DNA of 64,000 nt from Stieleria varia (GTDB taxonomy: Bacteria; Planctomycetota; Planctomycetia; Pirellulales; Pirellulaceae): positions 5,208,001 through 5,272,000 of the forward strand of contig NZ_CP151726.1 of NCBI RefSeq assembly GCF_038443385.1. Direction: 5' to 3'. Each line of letters begins with the position of its first letter. The first letter of the stretch is position 1. Below are positions 7,346 through 38,061 of the stretch, one piece after another. Under the pieces are notes generated by a model. The model did no database searches. It saw nothing but the letters and a program-made list of their open reading frames with translations, and was not told the origin of the DNA. The position numbers and the translations under genes were made by a program.

Positions 7346-7400
7346 TTCCGTGAGCCGACGGCGCTGGGCTGGGCTGTTCAAAATTTGGCGTTGTCACTGA

Positions 7401-7458
7401 TTTTGGTTTTGCATGTTTTGTTCCGCGAAGCTCCTTCCGTCGAGCTTGTCTCGGCGGA
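7401..7458 (+). repeat. 58-bp dispersed repeat, copy 1
   Basis: Identical over 58 bases to 34085-34142 in the same orientation. Its last ~26 bases (ttccgtcgagcttgtctcgg core) recur inverted near 16656-16681. In both full copies it sits in a gene-free repeat cluster. Confidence 0.8.
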
Positions 7459-7496
7459 GGAAACAACTGACGGCTACTTCGCACGCCAACAGAATT

Positions 7497-7543
7497 TGCC
7501 CACCACCCGCGAATCGCCTTCGGCGATTCGCGGGTGGTGGGCA
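7497..7543. repeat. Perfect 22-bp inverted repeat (hairpin)
   Basis: Arms 7497-7518 and 7522-7543 are exact reverse complements with a 3-base loop (ttc). It follows the DUF1559 gene by about 150 bases and no T-run follows, so it is a palindromic repeat, not a typical intrinsic terminator. Confidence 0.85.
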
Positions 7544-7661
7544 GGTGAATGTGCTTCTGTTGACGGTAGCTACCAGTTGCTGCTCCGAACCGGGACAAGC
7601 CCGGCGGAAGCAAGAAAAAATCTTGCGGAAAATAGGACCAAAACCCCAACTTTTTAGCAGT

Positions 7662-7794
7662 CTAGTGCATCATCCGGTCTTGATTTTGAGGTTAACCGTT
7701 TTGGCGTTAGCCACGGTTGTGTCACGAAAACCGTGGCTAACGCCAAGACGGCTCATCTACCGAACCCACGTTCTAAGACTGGACGATGCACTAG
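7662..7794 (+). repeat. 133-bp palindromic element, copy 1
   Basis: One of three copies (others 41398-41530 and 57716-57848), each exactly 133 bases and bounded by CTAG. Terminal arms of about 20 bp begin ctagtgcatc, and an inner palindrome centres on the gtgtcacg loop. This copy differs from the others at a few bases (catccggtct instead of cgtccagtct). There is no coding capacity. The structure is that of a MITE or large REP/BIME. Confidence 0.85.
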
Positions 7795-8070: not shown

Positions 8071-8550
8071 TCAGTGCTTGATCGAGTTTGCGATTTCACC
8101 CAGCAAGCTGCGGACCGTGTTGGCGGGTTGATAGCCGATGCGGTGCGCAACCACTTTTCCTTCCGGCAAACCGATCAATGTGGTCGGATACGCAGGGACC
8201 TTGATTCGCGATAGTGTTTCCGCATTGTGTTCGGGTGTGAGTCGAATGGCGACATATCCATCTCGCAACTGTTGTGTCACCGATTGATCGCACCACGTGT
8301 CACGTTTCATCGCGTCACAGTAGATGCATTGACGTGACGTGATGAAAATCACCATCGGTCGCTTCAACTGACGGGCTTGTCTCCAACCTGCTTCCAGGTT
8401 GTCGTGCCACTGCACCCCTGATGCGGGAGACATCTCGGCAGTTGTGCTGACAAGCTGTGGTGTTTCCGCTGAACTTGACCCTACGGACAATAAGAGCAGG
8501 AGGGATCCGAATCCCATTGCAACCATGATTCTTTTCACGGCAGATTCCAA
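8071..8550 (-). CDS. Secreted thioredoxin-like protein (DUF255/YyaL-type fold)
   Basis: The 159-residue protein has a signal peptide (MGFGSLLLLLSVG, cleavage near SSA-E) and one thioredoxin-fold domain. The redox motif is C-I-Y-C (about residues 86-89), in the context ITSRQCIYCDAMKRDTW, which resembles thioredoxin-like proteins that reduce or monitor disulfides in the periplasm. The cis-proline loop is visible as VPAYPTTLIG. It probably acts on extracytoplasmic thiols or in cytochrome maturation, but no partner gene is adjacent. A start at Met9 or Met12 is possible, since the first eight residues are dispensable. It is divergent from gdhA across a 1.3-kb repeat region. Confidence 0.8.
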   Translation of the reverse strand: MESAVKRIMVAMGFGSLLLLLSVGSSSAETPQLVSTTAEMSPASGVQWHDNLEAGWRQARQLKRPMVIFITSRQCIYCDAMKRDTWCDQSVTQQLRDGYVAIRLTPEHNAETLSRIKVPAYPTTLIGLPEGKVVAHRIGYQPANTVRSLLGEIANSIKH

Positions 8551-8713
8551 TGATTAGGAAGGTTAGTAGGAATAGAGAGACAAAGTCTACTCACTTTGGT
8601 TGCTAGCGGAAACACGGAGGCCCACAAATAGGGTTTTTGGGTGGTTTGAAGCCATTGGACTGTCAAAAGGTTGGCGTTGACATTGTTTTCTCTGTCCATG
8701 TTTTCCATGCATC
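8551..8713. other. Leader region of the thioredoxin-like gene
   Basis: 163 bases between the start of the thioredoxin-like gene and the tandem array. It must hold that gene's promoter. No operator or RNA structure stands out. Confidence 0.35.
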
Positions 8714-9535
8714 GCAATCAAAGTGAGCCTCAGGCGCTAGCCGTGGGCCGGCACCACAATCCGCCTCAGGCCCACGGCTAGCGCCTGAGGCTCACTGGGG
8801 TCACCAGCTGCGCCGCAAGGGTAAAATAAACAGCAATCAAAGTGAGCCTCAGGCGCTAGCCGTGGGCCGGCACCACAATCCGCCTCAGGCCCACGGCTAG
8901 CGCCTGAGGCTCACTGGGGTCACCAGCTGCGCCGCAAGGGCAAAATAAACAGCAATCAAAGTGAGCCTCAGGCGCTAGCCGTGGGCCGGCACCACAATCC
9001 GCCTCAGGCCCACGGCTAGCGCCTGAGGCTCACCGGGGGCACCAGCTGCGCCGGGAGGGTTAAATAAACAGCAATCAAAGTGAGCCTCAGGCGCTAGCCG
9101 TGGGCCGGCACCACAATCCGCCTCAGGCCCACGGCTAGCGCCTGAGGCTCACCGGGGTCACCAGCTGCGCCGGGAGAGTTAAATAAACAGCAATCAAAGT
9201 GAGCCTCAGGCGCTAGCCGTGGGCCGGCACCACAATCCGCCTCAGGCCCACGGCTAGCGCCTGAGGCTCACTGGGGTCACCAGCTGCGCCGGGAGGGTTA
9301 AATAAACAGCAATCAAAGTGAGCCTCAGGCGCTAGCCGTGGGCCGGCACCACAATCCGCCTCAGGCCCACGGCTAGCGCCTGAGGCTCACTGGGGTCACC
9401 AGCTGCGCCGGGAGGGTTAAATAAACAGCAATCAAAGTGAGCCTCAGGCGCTAGCCGTGGGCCGGCACCACAATCCGCCTCAGGCCCACGGCTAGCGCCT
9501 GAGGCTCACTGGGGTCACCAGCTGCGCCGGGAGAG
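8714..9535. repeat. Tandem array of seven 119-bp hairpin units
   Basis: Units start at 8714, 8833, 8952, 9071, 9190, 9309 and 9428, with an exact 119-base period. In the first unit the arms at 8723-8749 and 8769-8795 are 27-base perfect reverse complements around a 19-base loop (ggcaccacaatccgcctca); the same hairpin recurs in every unit. Units differ by only a few bases, mainly in the linker (caagggtaaaataaaca versus ggagggttaaataaaca) and at ctcactgggg/ctcaccgggg. Conserved linkers rule out CRISPR spacers. The array lies between two divergent genes, so it is probably transcribed into the gdhA leader or acts as a DNA-level element. Confidence 0.95.
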
Positions 9536-9540
9536 CATCT

Positions 9541-9610
9541 CAGCCGCCACGCGATAGCGTCCGGTTCTTACACCTATACTCAGGAACCGGACGCTATCGC
9601 GTGCCGGCTG
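9541..9610. repeat. Hairpin with 20-bp arms (gcgatagcgtccggttc family)
   Basis: Arms 9548-9567 and 9584-9603 are perfect reverse complements, and outer bases cagccg/cggctg extend the stem with a mismatch. A related, less perfect copy is at 16801-16866. It directly follows the tandem array. Confidence 0.85.
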
Positions 9611-9880
9611 ATGAATAATTCGGGCTAGCGGGGCAGGAGCCGCCTCTTACTTTCCCATGGTCCACTTCGCTCCCACAAGATGGCGAATCTCCGCCACTAA
9701 ACTGCTGGCCCGAGCGCATCGATGGCCGCTGCGTAGGATATCCCTCATCGATTCGACCCATTCGCCCAGGATTCTTGCCTTCTCTCTCGGGTTACCCACG
9801 CACACTTGCGTTGAACTGAATCCCCCGCGGGAAGTGCTTTACCGCCTTGCCAAATCTTACGAGTCCCCAGGAATGTTTTT
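9611..9880. other. gdhA leader region
   Basis: 270 bases between the last hairpin and gdhA. AGGA about 9 bases before the gdhA ATG is a plausible ribosome-binding site. A 75-codon frame (9657-9884) overlaps the gdhA start but is not convincing. No clear promoter hexamers are seen. Confidence 0.4.
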
Positions 9881-11218
9881 ATGAAAGAGATCGATCAATT
9901 CATGGATGGACTGCGGAAACGCAACCCACATGAGGTGGAGTTTCACCAAGCGGTGGAGGAGGTGGTCGAATCAGTGATGCCGTGGTATTTGGACCACAAG
10001 GAATACCATCGCGAGCAGATCCTGGAGCGCACCACCGAACCGGATCGCATCATCATCTTTCGTGTCTGTTGGGAAACCGACAGTGGCGATGTCCGCGCCA
10101 ATCGCGCATGGCGAGTTCAATTCAACCATGCACTGGGACCGTACAAAGGCGGATTGAGGTTCCATCCCAGTGTGACGCAGAGCGTGCTGAAGTTTCTGGG
10201 GTTTGAACAGATCTTTAAAAACAGTTTGACCGGATTGCCGATGGGCGGAGCCAAGGGCGGTTCGAACTTCAATCCCAAGGGCAAGAGCTCTCGTGAAGTC
10301 ATGCGGTTTTGCCAGTCGATGATGGTGGAGCTGTCGCGACATATCGGGGAAGACGTCGACGTGCCTGCAGGGGACATCGGCGTTGGTGCTCGCGAGATCA
10401 GCTATCTGTTCGGCCAGTACATGCGTTTGGAAAATCGCTGGTCGGGCGTTCTGACCGGCAAGGGACAGACGTTCGGCGGCAGCGCCGTGCGCACCGAAGC
10501 GACCGGGTACGGATGCGTGTACTTTTGCGAGCACATGCTGAATCAACACGGCGAAGGAATCGCTGGTAAGACGGTTGCGATCAGCGGCAGCGGAAATGTC
10601 GCGACCTACGCAGCGGAAAAGGCGATTGAAAAAGGTGCCAAGGTTTTGACATTGAGCGACTCGGATGGATTCATCGAAGTCAAAGGTGGCTTGTCGATGG
10701 AACAATTGCAGTTCGTCAAAGATCTTAAAGAAAACCGTCGTGGGCGGATTTCGGAAGTTGCGGACACGTTTGCCGGAGTCACCTACCACGCCGACGCGAC
10801 GCCATGGGGAGTGGCCTGTGACATTGCGATGCCATGCGCGACGCAAAACGAGATGGACGACCACGATGCCAAGACACTCGTGAACAATGGCGTCATCGCG
10901 GTTTGTGAAGGGGCCAATATGCCGCTGACCAATCACGCCGCGGGCGTACTGGCCAAGAACAATGTGCTGCATGCCCCCGGCAAAGCGTCCAATGCGGGCG
11001 GCGTTGCGGTGAGCGGATTGGAACAGAGCCAAAATGCGATGCGAATCAGTTGGGACCGCGACGAAGTCGACACGAGATTGCAAAAGATCATGACGAGTAT
11101 CCACTCACGCTGTGTCGAGCACGGCGAGCACAACGGCAGGGTGAATTACGTCACGGGCGCCAATATCGCCGGATTCAAAAAGGTAGCCGACGCCATGCTC
11201 GCCTACGGCGTGGTTTAG
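9881..11218 (+). CDS. gdhA: NADP-type glutamate dehydrogenase
   Basis: The 445-residue hexameric-type glutamate dehydrogenase assimilates ammonium into 2-oxoglutarate to give glutamate in the cytoplasm. The substrate domain contains GPYKGGLRFHPS (about 86-97), the catalytic lysine in GGAKGG (Lys125) and the catalytic aspartate in PAGDIGVG (Asp165). The dinucleotide-binding fold starts at ISGSGNVA (about 234-241). S-D-S-D-G after the second strand resembles NADP-using small enzymes more than NAD-using ones, but coenzyme choice is an inference. Length matches the family (about 445-450). It is monocistronic, with the seven-unit hairpin array in its upstream region, so nitrogen-dependent control there is worth considering. 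Confidence 0.97.
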   Translation: MKEIDQFMDGLRKRNPHEVEFHQAVEEVVESVMPWYLDHKEYHREQILERTTEPDRIIIFRVCWETDSGDVRANRAWRVQFNHALGPYKGGLRFHPSVTQSVLKFLGFEQIFKNSLTGLPMGGAKGGSNFNPKGKSSREVMRFCQSMMVELSRHIGEDVDVPAGDIGVGAREISYLFGQYMRLENRWSGVLTGKGQTFGGSAVRTEATGYGCVYFCEHMLNQHGEGIAGKTVAISGSGNVATYAAEKAIEKGAKVLTLSDSDGFIEVKGGLSMEQLQFVKDLKENRRGRISEVADTFAGVTYHADATPWGVACDIAMPCATQNEMDDHDAKTLVNNGVIAVCEGANMPLTNHAAGVLAKNNVLHAPGKASNAGGVAVSGLEQSQNAMRISWDRDEVDTRLQKIMTSIHSRCVEHGEHNGRVNYVTGANIAGFKKVADAMLAYGVV

Positions 11219-16545: not shown

Positions 16546-16800
16546 GTTATCGATCTGCCGCTGGTGAAGGGGAGTTGGGTTTGAAATCGCTTCATGATAT
16601 CGAGTCGTCTAGCGGCGTGTTGGCTTGCGAAGGTAGCCGTCTGTTGTTTCCCCCGCCGAGACAAGCTCGACGGAAGGAACTGGACTGCTCAAAGTTTGGG
16701 GTTGTTTCTTTTTGGCTTTGCGCAAGTTTATGTCCCTACTGCCGGCGCAGCTGGTGGCCCCCAGTGAACCTCAGGCGCTAGCCCGGATATTGCATCAGCC

Positions 16801-16866
16801 GGAGTGCGATAGCACCCGGTTCTCGTGTTTTGCCGTGTGAACCGGACGCTATCGCGTTGCGGCTGA
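16801..16866. repeat. Hairpin, gcgatagcg family copy 2
   Basis: Imperfect palindrome: agtgcgatagcacccggttc opposes gaaccggacgctatcgcgtt around a tcgtgttttgccgt loop, and flanking cagccg/cggctg bases match those at 9541-9610. Confidence 0.75.
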
Positions 16867-17004
16867 TATGCGCAGACTGTTTTTGTGCCAATCCGCATAA
16901 ACCATTTGGTGCAAACGTATTGCGAAGACTGTAGTCAGTGGCGTGAACAATCCGGGCTAGTGCCTTGCGGCTCACTAAATCAGCAGTCTCCGCAGCTGGG
17001 GGAG

Positions 17005-17055
17005 GTGACAGTGGACAAGAAACGGCTCATAGAAAAACGCCGAAACATCAAGTCA
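17005..17055 (+). repeat. 51-bp dispersed repeat, copy 2
   Basis: Matches 7901-7951 in the same orientation with a few substitutions, in gene-free sequence about 200 bases before blaI. Confidence 0.75.
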
Positions 17056-17151
17056 CCCCCAACCTCTGAACAGCCCAGGCGTAACGCACTCGGGCTGATC
17101 CAACACCCAGGCTTGCCATGAAAAATCGCCCCAAATCCGAACGGATTTCAC

Positions 17152-25904: not shown

Positions 25905-26012
25905 GTCAGGCTCGTGTACGTCAGGCTTTCTAGCCTGACTTGTTTGGGGTAGGTCAGGCTAGACAGCCTGACGTACGTGGGGTAAGTCAGGCTGGAAAGC
26001 CTGACGTACTTG
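25905..26012. repeat. REP-like palindromes (gtcaggct...agcctgac)
   Basis: Three hairpin units in a row around 25911-26007, such as gtcaggctttctagcctgac, gtcaggctagacagcctgac and gtcaggctggaaagcctgac. Related units lie at 38657-38689. The acyl-CoA dehydrogenase stop codon (TGA, 25987-25989) falls in the last unit. Confidence 0.85.
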
Positions 26013-28041
26013 GGTACGACTGCATGATCGGACCGGACTTGATGCCGGACAGTTCACTCCAGCCGTCGTTCGCGATGGTTGCTCCCAATTGTGTGACTTG
26101 TCGATAGTCCGCATCGCTGGGGGCTCGACCGGTCAGCTTGCCACGTAGCTCTCGGCAAACCGTGTCGGCCGCTGCCCTCGTGACTGGATCCTTGACTTCT
26201 GCCGCGTACAACGCTGTGACCAACATGGTGACGGCGTTCTGCACACGCAAGGACAAAGCCGACATGCGGCATTGACGATCCGCAAGCTTCAGTTGATGCC
26301 GGCGCATCGTTGAACTGATCTCCATCGCACTGCGCGACAAGAGATCTTGCGCAAACCGTACATGACCATTCAGTTCGTTGGTGAAGTCGCCGGAGCCGCC
26401 CGACACGGTCGACCATGACGAACCCATTATCATGCGTTTACCGTACCAACTGCCGTATTTCATCATCGGCCCACGCAACGCCCACAGGTGCGCCGGATTG
26501 ATCAGGCTGGGTTGACGCACTCCCAGATCGTTCAGCGTGCGACCGATCGGTTCAAAGTACTGCTTGCCGTGCGCCTTAACGAGCGACTTAAAGAATGCCA
26601 TCGCCAGCATCTCTCCTTCGCCCTCATAAATGCACGGAGCCAAGAAGTCGTGCACGTTGTCGCCAAACAAGTGTCCGTGCAGAAAGGAACGGCCACCGTG
26701 GGTCTTCATGAACAGCTCGATCGCGGCTTCCTTTTGCGACTCGCTGCCGAAGATCTTGGCGATGATGCATTCCATCTCCCCGCGGTATCCTTGATCGAGC
26801 AAGTTCGCGCACCAGTGGGTCAACGCATCGCAGGCGACGATCAAACCGGCCATGCGACCGACGCGGCGACGCACCAGTTCGCGTTGATCGATCGACTGAC
26901 CGTACGTCTTTCGAAACTGTGCCCAAGGCAACATTTCCGCTAACATCCATCGCATCGCTCCGGCCGCGTTGGCACACAAGGAAACACGTCCGAGATTCAA
27001 TCCGTGATAGGCGATCGTCAGCCCGTCTCCCCGCATCGGCTGTAGCAAGTTCTCGGCCGGGACGCGGAAATTCTTGAACACTAACGCGTTGTTGTGTGCG
27101 TGACGCAGCGCGTACAGGCCGTAGCTGTCGATGTGAAAGGTTTCCGTGTCGGTAGCTGGCAGCTCGGCGATCAACACCGCCGGCCGTCCATCGATCTTGC
27201 AAACCAGCCCGATCGTTCGCCCATAAGTCGCATTGGTGATGAAAAGCTTTTTGCCGTTGACGACGTATTCATCTCCGTCGCGAACTGCCGTGGTCTTCAG
27301 CGCGGTCAAGTCGCTGCCGGCGCCGGGTTCGGTCAACGCGAACGCGGAGAGACGTGATCCGTCGGCCAGCCCAGGCAGCAAGCGTTCCTTTTGGTCGTCC
27401 GTGCCGAATGATCGAACGGGATCAACGGCGCCGATGCAACCGTGGACGGACGCCAAGCCTGCCACTGTCGGATCGACCGTCGCCATTCGCGTTATCATTC
27501 TGGCAAAATCACGCATGGTCGCGCCGCTACCACCGTATTGAGGGCTGACCAGCAATCCCCAGTAACCCGCATCGGCCAAGTCCATCATGACTTCGTCGGT
27601 GATCTTGCCCGCTGAGTTGAACAATGTCCCTCGGTCGCGATGCATCCGAGTGATTTCGACACTGCGATCGATCACACGTTGCACGGCTTCACTGGGCAAC
27701 GACAAGCTCGGTCGAAACGTTTCCGTGTCGACGCGACGATCCCAGACAGCACGGTGAATCGGGCTGCTGACCGTTTGATACTTGGTCGCAAACAAATCTT
27801 CCACTTGATCGTCCGCGGTGTCCAAGACGCCCGTTCGCTTGGCTTCCTCTTCCGACGCACCGCCAAGACGCAACGCGACTTCGGCGAACGACTCAGGACC
27901 ACTGGAGCGAACCACGTCGTCCGTTGCCCCATTATCGGATGGCAACGTGGTGTCCGTGGATACCGGTTGTTCTTTGGTGTGACCGGTGACCAAGACGCTG
28001 TCGTCGTTGAGCGGCGTGTTGTGATTGATGTCAGTACTCAT
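25987..28041 (-). CDS. Acyl-CoA dehydrogenase, long form
   Basis: The 684-residue FAD enzyme oxidises acyl-CoA to 2-enoyl-CoA. A roughly 115-residue N-terminal extension precedes the catalytic domain and is polar in its first 50 residues. FAD/substrate motifs include A-F-A-L-T-E-P-G-A-G-S-D (about 232-243), and the likely catalytic base Glu lies in Y-E-G-E-G-E-M-L. The C-terminal roughly 190 residues (after about 490) are an extra helical domain like that of long-chain acyl-CoA dehydrogenases. AGGAGAG, 8 bases before ATG 28041, is a good ribosome-binding site and fixes the start. It lies 66 bases behind the FadJ-type gene. Its last seven residues and stop codon come from a REP unit. Confidence 0.92.
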   Translation of the reverse strand: MSTDINHNTPLNDDSVLVTGHTKEQPVSTDTTLPSDNGATDDVVRSSGPESFAEVALRLGGASEEEAKRTGVLDTADDQVEDLFATKYQTVSSPIHRAVWDRRVDTETFRPSLSLPSEAVQRVIDRSVEITRMHRDRGTLFNSAGKITDEVMMDLADAGYWGLLVSPQYGGSGATMRDFARMITRMATVDPTVAGLASVHGCIGAVDPVRSFGTDDQKERLLPGLADGSRLSAFALTEPGAGSDLTALKTTAVRDGDEYVVNGKKLFITNATYGRTIGLVCKIDGRPAVLIAELPATDTETFHIDSYGLYALRHAHNNALVFKNFRVPAENLLQPMRGDGLTIAYHGLNLGRVSLCANAAGAMRWMLAEMLPWAQFRKTYGQSIDQRELVRRRVGRMAGLIVACDALTHWCANLLDQGYRGEMECIIAKIFGSESQKEAAIELFMKTHGGRSFLHGHLFGDNVHDFLAPCIYEGEGEMLAMAFFKSLVKAHGKQYFEPIGRTLNDLGVRQPSLINPAHLWALRGPMMKYGSWYGKRMIMGSSWSTVSGGSGDFTNELNGHVRFAQDLLSRSAMEISSTMRRHQLKLADRQCRMSALSLRVQNAVTMLVTALYAAEVKDPVTRAAADTVCRELRGKLTGRAPSDADYRQVTQLGATIANDGWSELSGIKSGPIMQSYPSTSGFPA

Positions 28042-33423: not shown

Positions 33424-33917
33424 CGCGAGACCTCCCTTCGTCGGCGCTCGTGCGCCGAAGGTGGCCCGGTGAGGGGGTTCCGTCTCGCTCGCGGGTTTCC
33501 ATTGCGAGACCGGACTGTGGTGGTGAACCGAAACGGAACCCCTCAGTGGTTGATTAGCACGCCTATCGGACGACGTGGGGCAGCTTGCCGCTGCCACTGC
33601 CTTGCAGTCCAGGAAGATCGATCAAACCGGGCCATGGTCAATGTCCCTGTCATGCACTCGATTATACGCCAATGTCCAGCTAGCGTGAACTGAAATCCCG
33701 CCAAAAACCTATAAAGGCAATTTCTCTACCCTTGTCGGTTTGCCGTCATCGCGGTTCTGTTTGACGCGTGGTCTGGGCTGATCAAAATCTGGGGTTGTGG
33801 CACTGTGTCGCTACGCAAGTTTCTGTCACCTCTCCCGGCACAGCTGGAGAGGTGGCAGTCATGAGACTCGGCTCAGCTCGTTTGGTTTGTGTTTGCGCGG
33901 ATGGTGGTGTTCGTTTT

Positions 33918-33963
33918 CGACTTGGAAAGTCGAACGACAATCGTCGCTCGACTTTCCAAGTCG
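33918..33963. repeat. Perfect 15-bp inverted repeat
   Basis: cgacttggaaagtcg at 33918-33932 opposes cgactttccaagtcg at 33949-33963, loop aacgacaatcgtcgct. It is part of the repeat cluster between fadD and the OleC-like gene. Confidence 0.85.
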
Positions 33964-34084
33964 ATAGCGTGCCCCGTCAAGCGTTTTGCGATTCCCAATC
34001 ATTGACTTGCTCAGACAGGCCCACCGCCCTCGCATTCGCCTAAGCGAGACGTCACCCCAAGTTCGTTGGGGGAGGTGACACGGG

Positions 34085-34142
34085 TTTTGGTTTTGCATGT
34101 TTTGTTCCGCGAAGCTCCTTCCGTCGAGCTTGTCTCGGCGGA
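34085..34142 (+). repeat. 58-bp dispersed repeat, copy 2
   Basis: Identical to 7401-7458 over all 58 bases, in the same orientation, again in gene-free sequence. Confidence 0.85.
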
Positions 34143-34181
34143 AGCAAGAAAAAAACAACACCAAACTTTGAGCGGTCCAAG

Positions 34182-37782: not shown

Positions 37783-38061
37783 GAGAAAAAATGTCTCGCA
37801 AGATCGCCTGCCTGTCTAGCGGGCTGTTGATTTGGCGCGTCACGCAATCCTTGTGAGCCGATGGCGCTAGCCACGGGCCTTGTGAGCCGATGGCGCTAGC
37901 CACGGGCTTCGAAGGGTTCGATCATGACCATAAAGCCCGCGGCTATCGCCGTCGGCTCACTCAATCAACGGGACTGCACAAAACCGACTCAATACGTCAT
38001 CTTAACAAGTGCCGTTTTTGACAGAATCCTCACGCAGTCCAGCAATCCCCGGCAACGCGAC
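37783..38061. other. Intergenic region with gtgagccgatggcgctagcc repeats
   Basis: 279 bases between divergent mch and def. Two direct copies of gtgagccgatggcgctagcc begin at 37853 and 37881, and an inverted partner ends at 37960, forming a large palindrome. The def promoter must lie close to 37960-38061. Confidence 0.65.
37853..37960. repeat. Palindromic repeat related to the tandem-array hairpin
   Basis: Two direct copies of a 26-base unit and an inverted, slightly diverged copy (gcccgcggctatcgccgtcggctcac). The cgctagcc...gggc core resembles the 27-bp arms of the 8714-9535 array. Confidence 0.7.

Follow-up and report, generated by a model that had tools for sequence, protein, structure and literature searches.

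A hairpin array upstream of gdhA in Stieleria varia is most likely a tandem amplification within a mobile element that carries a REPIN-like hairpin

The 64,000-nucleotide stretch of Stieleria varia DNA analyzed here (contig NZ_CP151726.1, positions 5,208,001 to 5,272,000 of the forward strand; hereafter the window) carries a tandem array of seven hairpins between a thioredoxin-like gene and gdhA. Our analysis indicates that the array very probably arose by in situ tandem duplication of a section of a miniature inverted-repeat transposable element (MITE), a section that bears a hairpin resembling a REPIN, that is, an inverted pair of repetitive extragenic palindromic (REP) sequences. In all likelihood the array represents genomic-parasite DNA rather than a device for the control of gdhA. 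The features of the locus are as follows, in window coordinates.

8071-8550, minus strand: thioredoxin-like gene (Thioredoxin_7; Pfam PF13899, E 1.4e-12), transcribed away from the array
8656-8722, plus strand: left end of the MITE, with a degenerate terminal inverted repeat (TGGACTG-TCAAAAGG-TTGG) and the left arm (GTTGACATTGTTTTCTCTGTCCATG...GCATCGCAATCAAA), by consensus match
8714-9533, plus strand: tandem array of seven hairpin units, period 119 (Tandem Repeats Finder and repeat search)
8723-8795, plus strand: hairpin 1 (REPIN-like), arms 8723-8749 and 8769-8795, loop 8750-8768
8842-8914, plus strand: hairpin 2, identical to hairpin 1 (this and the following hairpins by sequence comparison)
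8961-9033, plus strand: hairpin 3, identical to hairpin 1
9080-9152, plus strand: hairpin 4, identical to hairpin 1
9199-9271, plus strand: hairpin 5, identical to hairpin 1
9318-9390, plus strand: hairpin 6, identical to hairpin 1
9437-9509, plus strand: hairpin 7, identical to hairpin 1
9510-9535, plus strand: shortened right arm of the MITE (TGGGGTCACCAGCTGCGCCGGGAGAG), lacking the right terminal repeat (element consensus and sequence)
9543-9617, plus strand: hairpin belonging to a different repeat family (CAGCCGCCACGCGATAGCGTCCGGTTC...GAACCGGACGCTATCGCGTGCCGGCTGATGAATAATTCGG), directly adjacent to the array (sequence)
9881-11218, plus strand: gdhA, NADP-specific glutamate dehydrogenase (NCBIfam PRK09414 equivalog, E 3.5e-213)

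Tandem Repeats Finder delimited the array at 8714-9533 with a period of 119, 6.9 copies, 98% matches and no indels, in agreement with the period, the seven units and the coordinates given by a first-pass annotation made from the letters alone. The arms consist of GTGAGCCTCAGGCGCTAGCCGTGGGCC and its reverse complement in every unit, and the 19-nt loop is equally invariant. As that annotation had also described, the 27-bp arms are perfectly paired in all seven units; they extend to 28 nt in the five units with T as the next base. Hairpin 1 folds as DNA with -41 kcal/mol (z -12). One array unit has a fold z of about -9, and none of 200 shuffles folded equally well; a chance origin of the array is excluded. 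All variation lies in the 46-bp linkers, whose slight drift had been noted correctly: 11 of 276 linker bases are substituted against 0 of 511 hairpin bases, with several of the linker substitutions forming one block. The remark that such palindromic DNA is normally unstable was overstated, since REP elements often have arms this long.

The array is intergenic, and because it is flanked by divergent genes it is unable to terminate either of them. It does lie upstream of gdhA, as had been stated, but the description as a gdhA leader is merely positional, with the array ending approximately 350 bp before the gdhA start. The neighboring hairpin at 9543-9617 recurs beside these elements at other loci of the genome (e.g. 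L193 and L022).

The single 9.72-Mb contig of the genome was searched with the core GGCGCTAGCCGTGGG. The core occurs at 756 sites with at most one mismatch, compared to 6 in the reversed control, and at 911 sites with at most two mismatches, compared to 92, so that the arm sequence indeed belongs to a dispersed family. Other genomes almost lack the exact GTGGG form; the congeners searched contain 0-147 near matches, mostly of the GCGGG form. Alignment of copies, with a consensus from 30 of them, revealed that the usual setting of the dispersed hairpin is a 226-bp element without a gene. In it, the 73-bp hairpin stands between a left arm (GTTGACATTGTTTTTTCAGTCCATGTTTTTGTTCCATGCATCGCAATCAAA) and a right arm (TGGGGCCACCAGCTGCGCCGGCAGTAGGGACATAAACTTGCGCAAACCCAAAAAGACACAACA), with TGGACTGCTCAAAGTTTGG before the left arm and the inverted terminal repeat after the right arm. 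The terminal inverted repeats (TIRs) are 24 bp long and perfect in the reference copy. The element has 162 matching pieces in its own genome, while its non-hairpin part found no match in 13 other genomes of the genus and its hairpin part was matched in 2 of these 13.

The two flanks of one and the same copy of the element agree best at exactly 9 bp (0.53 versus 0.41 for cross-pairs, permutation p 0.0005). The same length emerged in a second, partly overlapping set of copies (permutation p 0.0026), other lengths giving no comparable signal, and clear 9-bp target duplications are seen as GAGTTGCCC/GAGTTGCCC (L229) and GCGTTAGCC/GCGTTTGCC (L017). Terminal inverted repeats together with target duplications of fixed length are typical of MITEs mobilized by DDE-type transposases. 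The 226-bp element shows both, and we infer that such an enzyme mobilized it.

In the window, the segment at 8656-8722 differs from the element by four mismatches to the TIR consensus and two to the left-arm consensus, and the left arm runs straight into hairpin 1. Each 119-bp unit contains the hairpin, preceded by the final 9 bp of the left arm and followed by about 37 bp of the right arm. Beyond unit 7, the right arm breaks off at about 9535 and the hairpin of the other family comes next. Judged from this arrangement, the window array appears to have grown by tandem repetition of an inner segment of a MITE whose right end is gone. An origin of the linker from local host DNA duplicated around a REPIN was rejected, as the linker matches the arms of the dispersed element. 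Two further features of the window had been pointed out as similar cores, at 16763 and 37853:

16681-17077, plus strand: second MITE copy in reverse orientation, its hairpin broken by another inserted element (TIR 0 mismatches, right arm 0 mismatches)
37849-37950, plus strand: sister REP family (GTGAGCCGATGGCGCTAGCCACGGG), a tandem pair and an inverted copy (Tandem Repeats Finder)

The first of these is the same MITE, whereas the second belongs to the sister family and is itself tandemly paired. Elements with related terminal repeats (TGGGCTGTTCAAAATTTGG or similar) and very different interiors, in which the hairpin is absent, lie at 7370-7664 and 33774-34179 of the window, and a tandem pair of another palindromic repeat (GTCAGGCTAGAAAGCCTGACGTACG) is located at 25945-26014.

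The family had been thought to be arrayed only at this locus; this was refuted by at least a dozen other arrays of the same hairpin in the genome, with 3-8 units each and differing periods (99, 119, 154, 158, 159, 168, 181, 188, 206, 208 and 237 among the listed positions and fetched regions). Examples are an array of 8 units with a 237-bp period at 4.70 Mb, two of 7 units each, with periods of about 180 bp at 3.57 Mb and 159 bp at 6.79 Mb, and one of 5 units with a 99-bp period at 3.10 Mb. In a sample of 464 kb, composed of twenty 20-kb stretches at even steps and the window, the core or its sister core was present in 8 of the 15 tandem arrays with a period of 40 or more, and the window array was the largest core-bearing array of this sample, though not of the genome. 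The breakpoints differ between arrays: units are joined at CAGCTG/GACTGC at 6.79 Mb, and whole elements plus 11 bp are repeated at 4.70 Mb, which suggests that the arrays arose independently. The earlier suggestion of a recent amplification is right, and arrays of the MITE-borne hairpin have arisen many times.

The divergence of hairpins and their surroundings was also compared elsewhere. In 30 dispersed MITE copies chosen independently of arm sequence, the hairpins are 3.2 times less diverged than the MITE flanks (p 5e-5), arms and loop alike. An earlier estimate was biased, as its loci had partly been picked by exact arm match; the unbiased repeat gave a smaller yet clear effect. The low divergence may stem from selection on the hairpin, from conversion within the set of several hundred copies or from new REPINs taking the place of old ones. 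Within arrays, the substitution rates pooled over twelve arrays (a total that includes the array beside the transposase-like gene described below twice, as L141 and L162) were 0.011 for the hairpin and 0.015 for the linker, a difference that is not significant (p 0.10). A general rule that array hairpins are more conserved than linkers was therefore rejected. The near identity of units that had been remarked on is real but not peculiar to the window array.

The genome contains 27 Y1_Tnp hits. One of the encoded proteins, P0001 (151 aa, G000:C1:8465637-8466089), has identical hairpins, as small arrays, on both sides of its gene. Near the genes of its relatives in other planctomycetes, often at both ends, diverged hairpins (AGCCGNNGGCGCTAGCCNCGG) are found. 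Across 36 loci of the P0001 type, some of them non-planctomycete, the core motif reaches a density of 3.7 per kb up to 250 bp from the gene and falls to 0.08 per kb beyond 1 kb; the motif occurs near the gene in 21 loci and on both sides in 16. The HUH motif (NHVH; N85, H86, H88), W125, Y146 and Q151 (Y....Q) are invariant among 26 P0001 relatives. The structure predicted by AlphaFold2 (pLDDT 82) has the fold of the IS200/IS608 TnpA at Z 10-11 and of TnpA-REP 4er8 at Z 8.0, while a sequence search of solved structures returned weak matches only. According to the cited sections of PMC6006769, class 3 of the TnpA_Y1 proteins has NHVH, W[TA] and Y....Q motifs, a short core and a hairpin foot CnGA; it is known from a couple of dozen sequences, and its origin and behavior are said there to need experiments. 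By its motifs, its size, its host range and the high-copy hairpins flanking its gene, P0001 fits this class as described in those sections. The foot of the arm is AGCCTCA in the subfamily of this genome, AGCCGAT or AGCCGAC in several relatives and AGCCGCA or AGCGGCA in others. Among 149 genomes of the family, presence of a REP-associated tyrosine transposase (RAYT) is associated with REP copy number at an excess of at least 5 (Fisher p 0.0001) and not at an excess of at least 25 (p 0.11), a threshold-dependent association that lends weak support.

Several related loci were observed alongside. A second gene of the class-3 type (7588182-7588625; L054, genome 7,586,829-7,590,056), whose product shares 44% identity with P0001, lies next to an array of ten 110-bp units built from a sister hairpin (ATCAGCCGATGGGCGTTAGCCCCGGTT) with the core GGCGTTAGCC. 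At L032 (genome 3,216,664), four copies of another REP-like repeat (CAGACGGTAGCCGTGGGTCGCCGAAGGCGCACCCACGGT) flank a Y1 transposase-like gene of a more typical kind. In a 5.8-Mb genome of the same family (G093), the near-identical core GGCGCTAGCCGCGGG occurs about 300 times, frequently in runs with a spacing of 24 bp; this genome showed no P0001 relative at E 0.001, and its Y1_Tnp hits were one weak one and two stronger, more typical ones.

A course of events that would connect the observed anatomy, copy numbers, MITE structure, target duplications, linkage to a RAYT and other arrays can be proposed. The unit hairpin is REPIN-like, formed by a pair of GGCGCTAGCC-type REPs in inverted orientation, and its family would be served by the class 3 TnpA_Y1 (RAYT-like) single-strand nuclease encoded elsewhere among the same hairpins. 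In this lineage, one such REPIN sits inside the 226-bp TIR element, which, presumably moved by a DDE transposase, carried it to numerous positions and duplicated 9 bp of target DNA on insertion, so that most REPIN copies here were apparently moved by the MITE. One MITE copy would have inserted between the thioredoxin-like gene and gdhA and then lost its right end. Replication slippage or unequal recombination, probably helped by the hairpins, would have multiplied the 119-bp segment in tandem until seven units were present.

Several points weigh against this amplification scenario. No autonomous transposase with the TIRs of the MITE was recognized by TIR spacing among the TIR sites listed; pairs of TIRs 1.5-2.1 kb apart enclose nested arrays or IS1380 insertion sequences (IS) with different TIRs. 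The target duplication of the window copy itself is uncheckable because its right TIR is lost. Invariant hairpins beside varying linkers in the window array are unexpected under pure drift after duplication, and some selection or homogenization acts on the dispersed hairpins. Finally, the apparent hairpin foot CCTC differs from the CnGA of class 3, so that the class definition applies only in part.

The IS1380 elements were considered as partners of the MITE and rejected, as their TIR is CCGGATATTGCATC and they are inserted within a REP arm. The two IS1380-family copies with this TIR (L192:741-2243 at 3.289 Mb and L194:969-2471 at 2.396 Mb) both sit exactly at the GCTAGC center of REP arms, one of this family and one of the sister CCGAT family, which suggests that REP cores may be landing sites of IS1380-family elements.

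A more far-reaching version of the amplification scenario, which we put forward only tentatively and consider rather doubtful, holds that a class-3 REPIN was captured by a DDE-type MITE, so that two unrelated transposition systems would reside in one element. The hairpin would then be kept uniform across hundreds of copies by REPIN-templated conversion or TnpA_Y1-driven replacement and would seed arrays wherever it lands.

Other explanations of the array fared worse. Arrays of REP sequences could organize the nucleoid or its supercoiling as sites for gyrase or architectural proteins and be selected genome-wide, not for gdhA. The high copy number, the constraint or homogenization of the hairpins relative to the MITE flanks, and the bacterial interspersed mosaic elements (BIMEs) of E. 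coli, as presented in the excerpted part of PMC2817692, speak for such a role; however, the hairpin family is near-private to this genome, and we regard the explanation as improbable. Slightly more improbable is a cis-acting regulator of gdhA kept by selection, either through hairpins formed by the RNA of a long 5' leader or as a multi-site array for a regulator. It would be in keeping with the position upstream of gdhA, with the seven invariant hairpins and varying linkers, and with a high RNA stability of -77 kcal/mol per unit. However, four congeneric gdhA orthologues (81-83% identity) have other neighbors and show no such hairpin in the retrieved stretch of at most 1.5 kb upstream, and no Rfam family was found at gathering score, the matches on the array being microRNA models far below it, which were dismissed as generic hairpin matches. 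A gdhA-specific role was therefore judged unlikely. Moreover, the same hairpins occur at hundreds of other loci, and about 260 bp of unarrayed DNA between the hairpin at 9543-9617 and gdhA leave room for a promoter; a sigma-70 promoter scan of the DNA upstream of gdhA found none and was uninformative. With no array-specific conservation found either, the protein decoy, RNA leader hairpins and chromosomal organizer proposed by the first-pass annotation received no support. We infer that the array has no selected function at gdhA; a side effect on gdhA expression is possible. An assembly artefact, with a wrong copy number or misjoined repeats, is scarcely credible even though short tandem repeats are prone to miscounting by assemblers, given the single contig, the linker variants that distinguish units, the junction of unit 1 with the left MITE arm in the expected order and the similar arrays of other periods elsewhere, and one miscounted unit would leave the identification unaffected.

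The cognate class-3 hairpins are now described across planctomycetes, including one genome with hundreds of copies and many tandem arrays. This makes it testable whether TnpA_Y1 nucleases of this family mobilize or preserve REPINs, and in what way hairpins cause arrays to grow. The locus also cautions that a striking hairpin array may precede a gene and have no regulatory role.

Known systems share parts of this picture. The family has a high-copy short REP, an inverted pair forming a hairpin and a RAYT-type gene flanked by the same REP, as REPINs do; the 226-bp element is short and gene-free with TIRs and a fixed 9-bp target duplication, as in MITEs; P0001 has the motifs, the short core and the predicted HUH/Y1 fold of class 3 TnpA_Y1. 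Tandem REPIN clusters that incorporate flanking DNA were already known (PMC3116915; PMC3733652). The REPINs of Pseudomonas fluorescens SBW25 (Bertels and Rainey 2011, PMC3116915) likewise form hairpins from inverted REP pairs, reach high copy numbers, occur in tandem clusters including flanking DNA and have a RAYT gene with adjoining clustered copies. They differ from the present family in REP sequence and foot, whereas here the 27-28 nt arms are perfect and most copies lie within a TIR element; the largest ordered cluster reported there comprises four REPINs, compared to arrays of up to 7-8 units here. The GTAG and CGTC REP superfamilies (PMC3733652) have also been reported from Planctomycetes, but the family described here has no terminal GTAG or CGTC tag, and a GTAG-tagged REP of a class 2 RAYT was ruled out because the arm starts with GTGAGCCTCAGGCG and not with a GTAG/GGAG foot. 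BrickBuilt of Porphyromonas gingivalis, as far as the consulted sections of PMC4596501 describe it, is also an intergenic MITE with tandem repeats inside; its 23-nt unit has no spacers, no REP hairpin is described in those sections, and it has 19 copies in the genome.

The REPtron-like class 3 TnpA_Y1 systems, as described in the cited sections of PMC6006769, likewise have a protein of ~150 aa of the HUH/Y1 type, NHVH/W/Y....Q motifs, occurrence in Planctomycetes and atypical flanking hairpins in high copy number. The CnGA foot is seen here in sister families (GCCGAT, GCCGAC), while this subfamily has CCTC, and tandem arrays and capture by a MITE are not among the features those sections describe. 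A literature search of open-licence papers did not find the combination of a class-3 REPIN-like hairpin in a TIR MITE that is repeatedly arrayed. Taken together, our results are mildly new in that they present a REPIN within a MITE and link it to the class-3 system, which has been little studied; the divergence of the hairpins is about one third of that of their MITE flanks.
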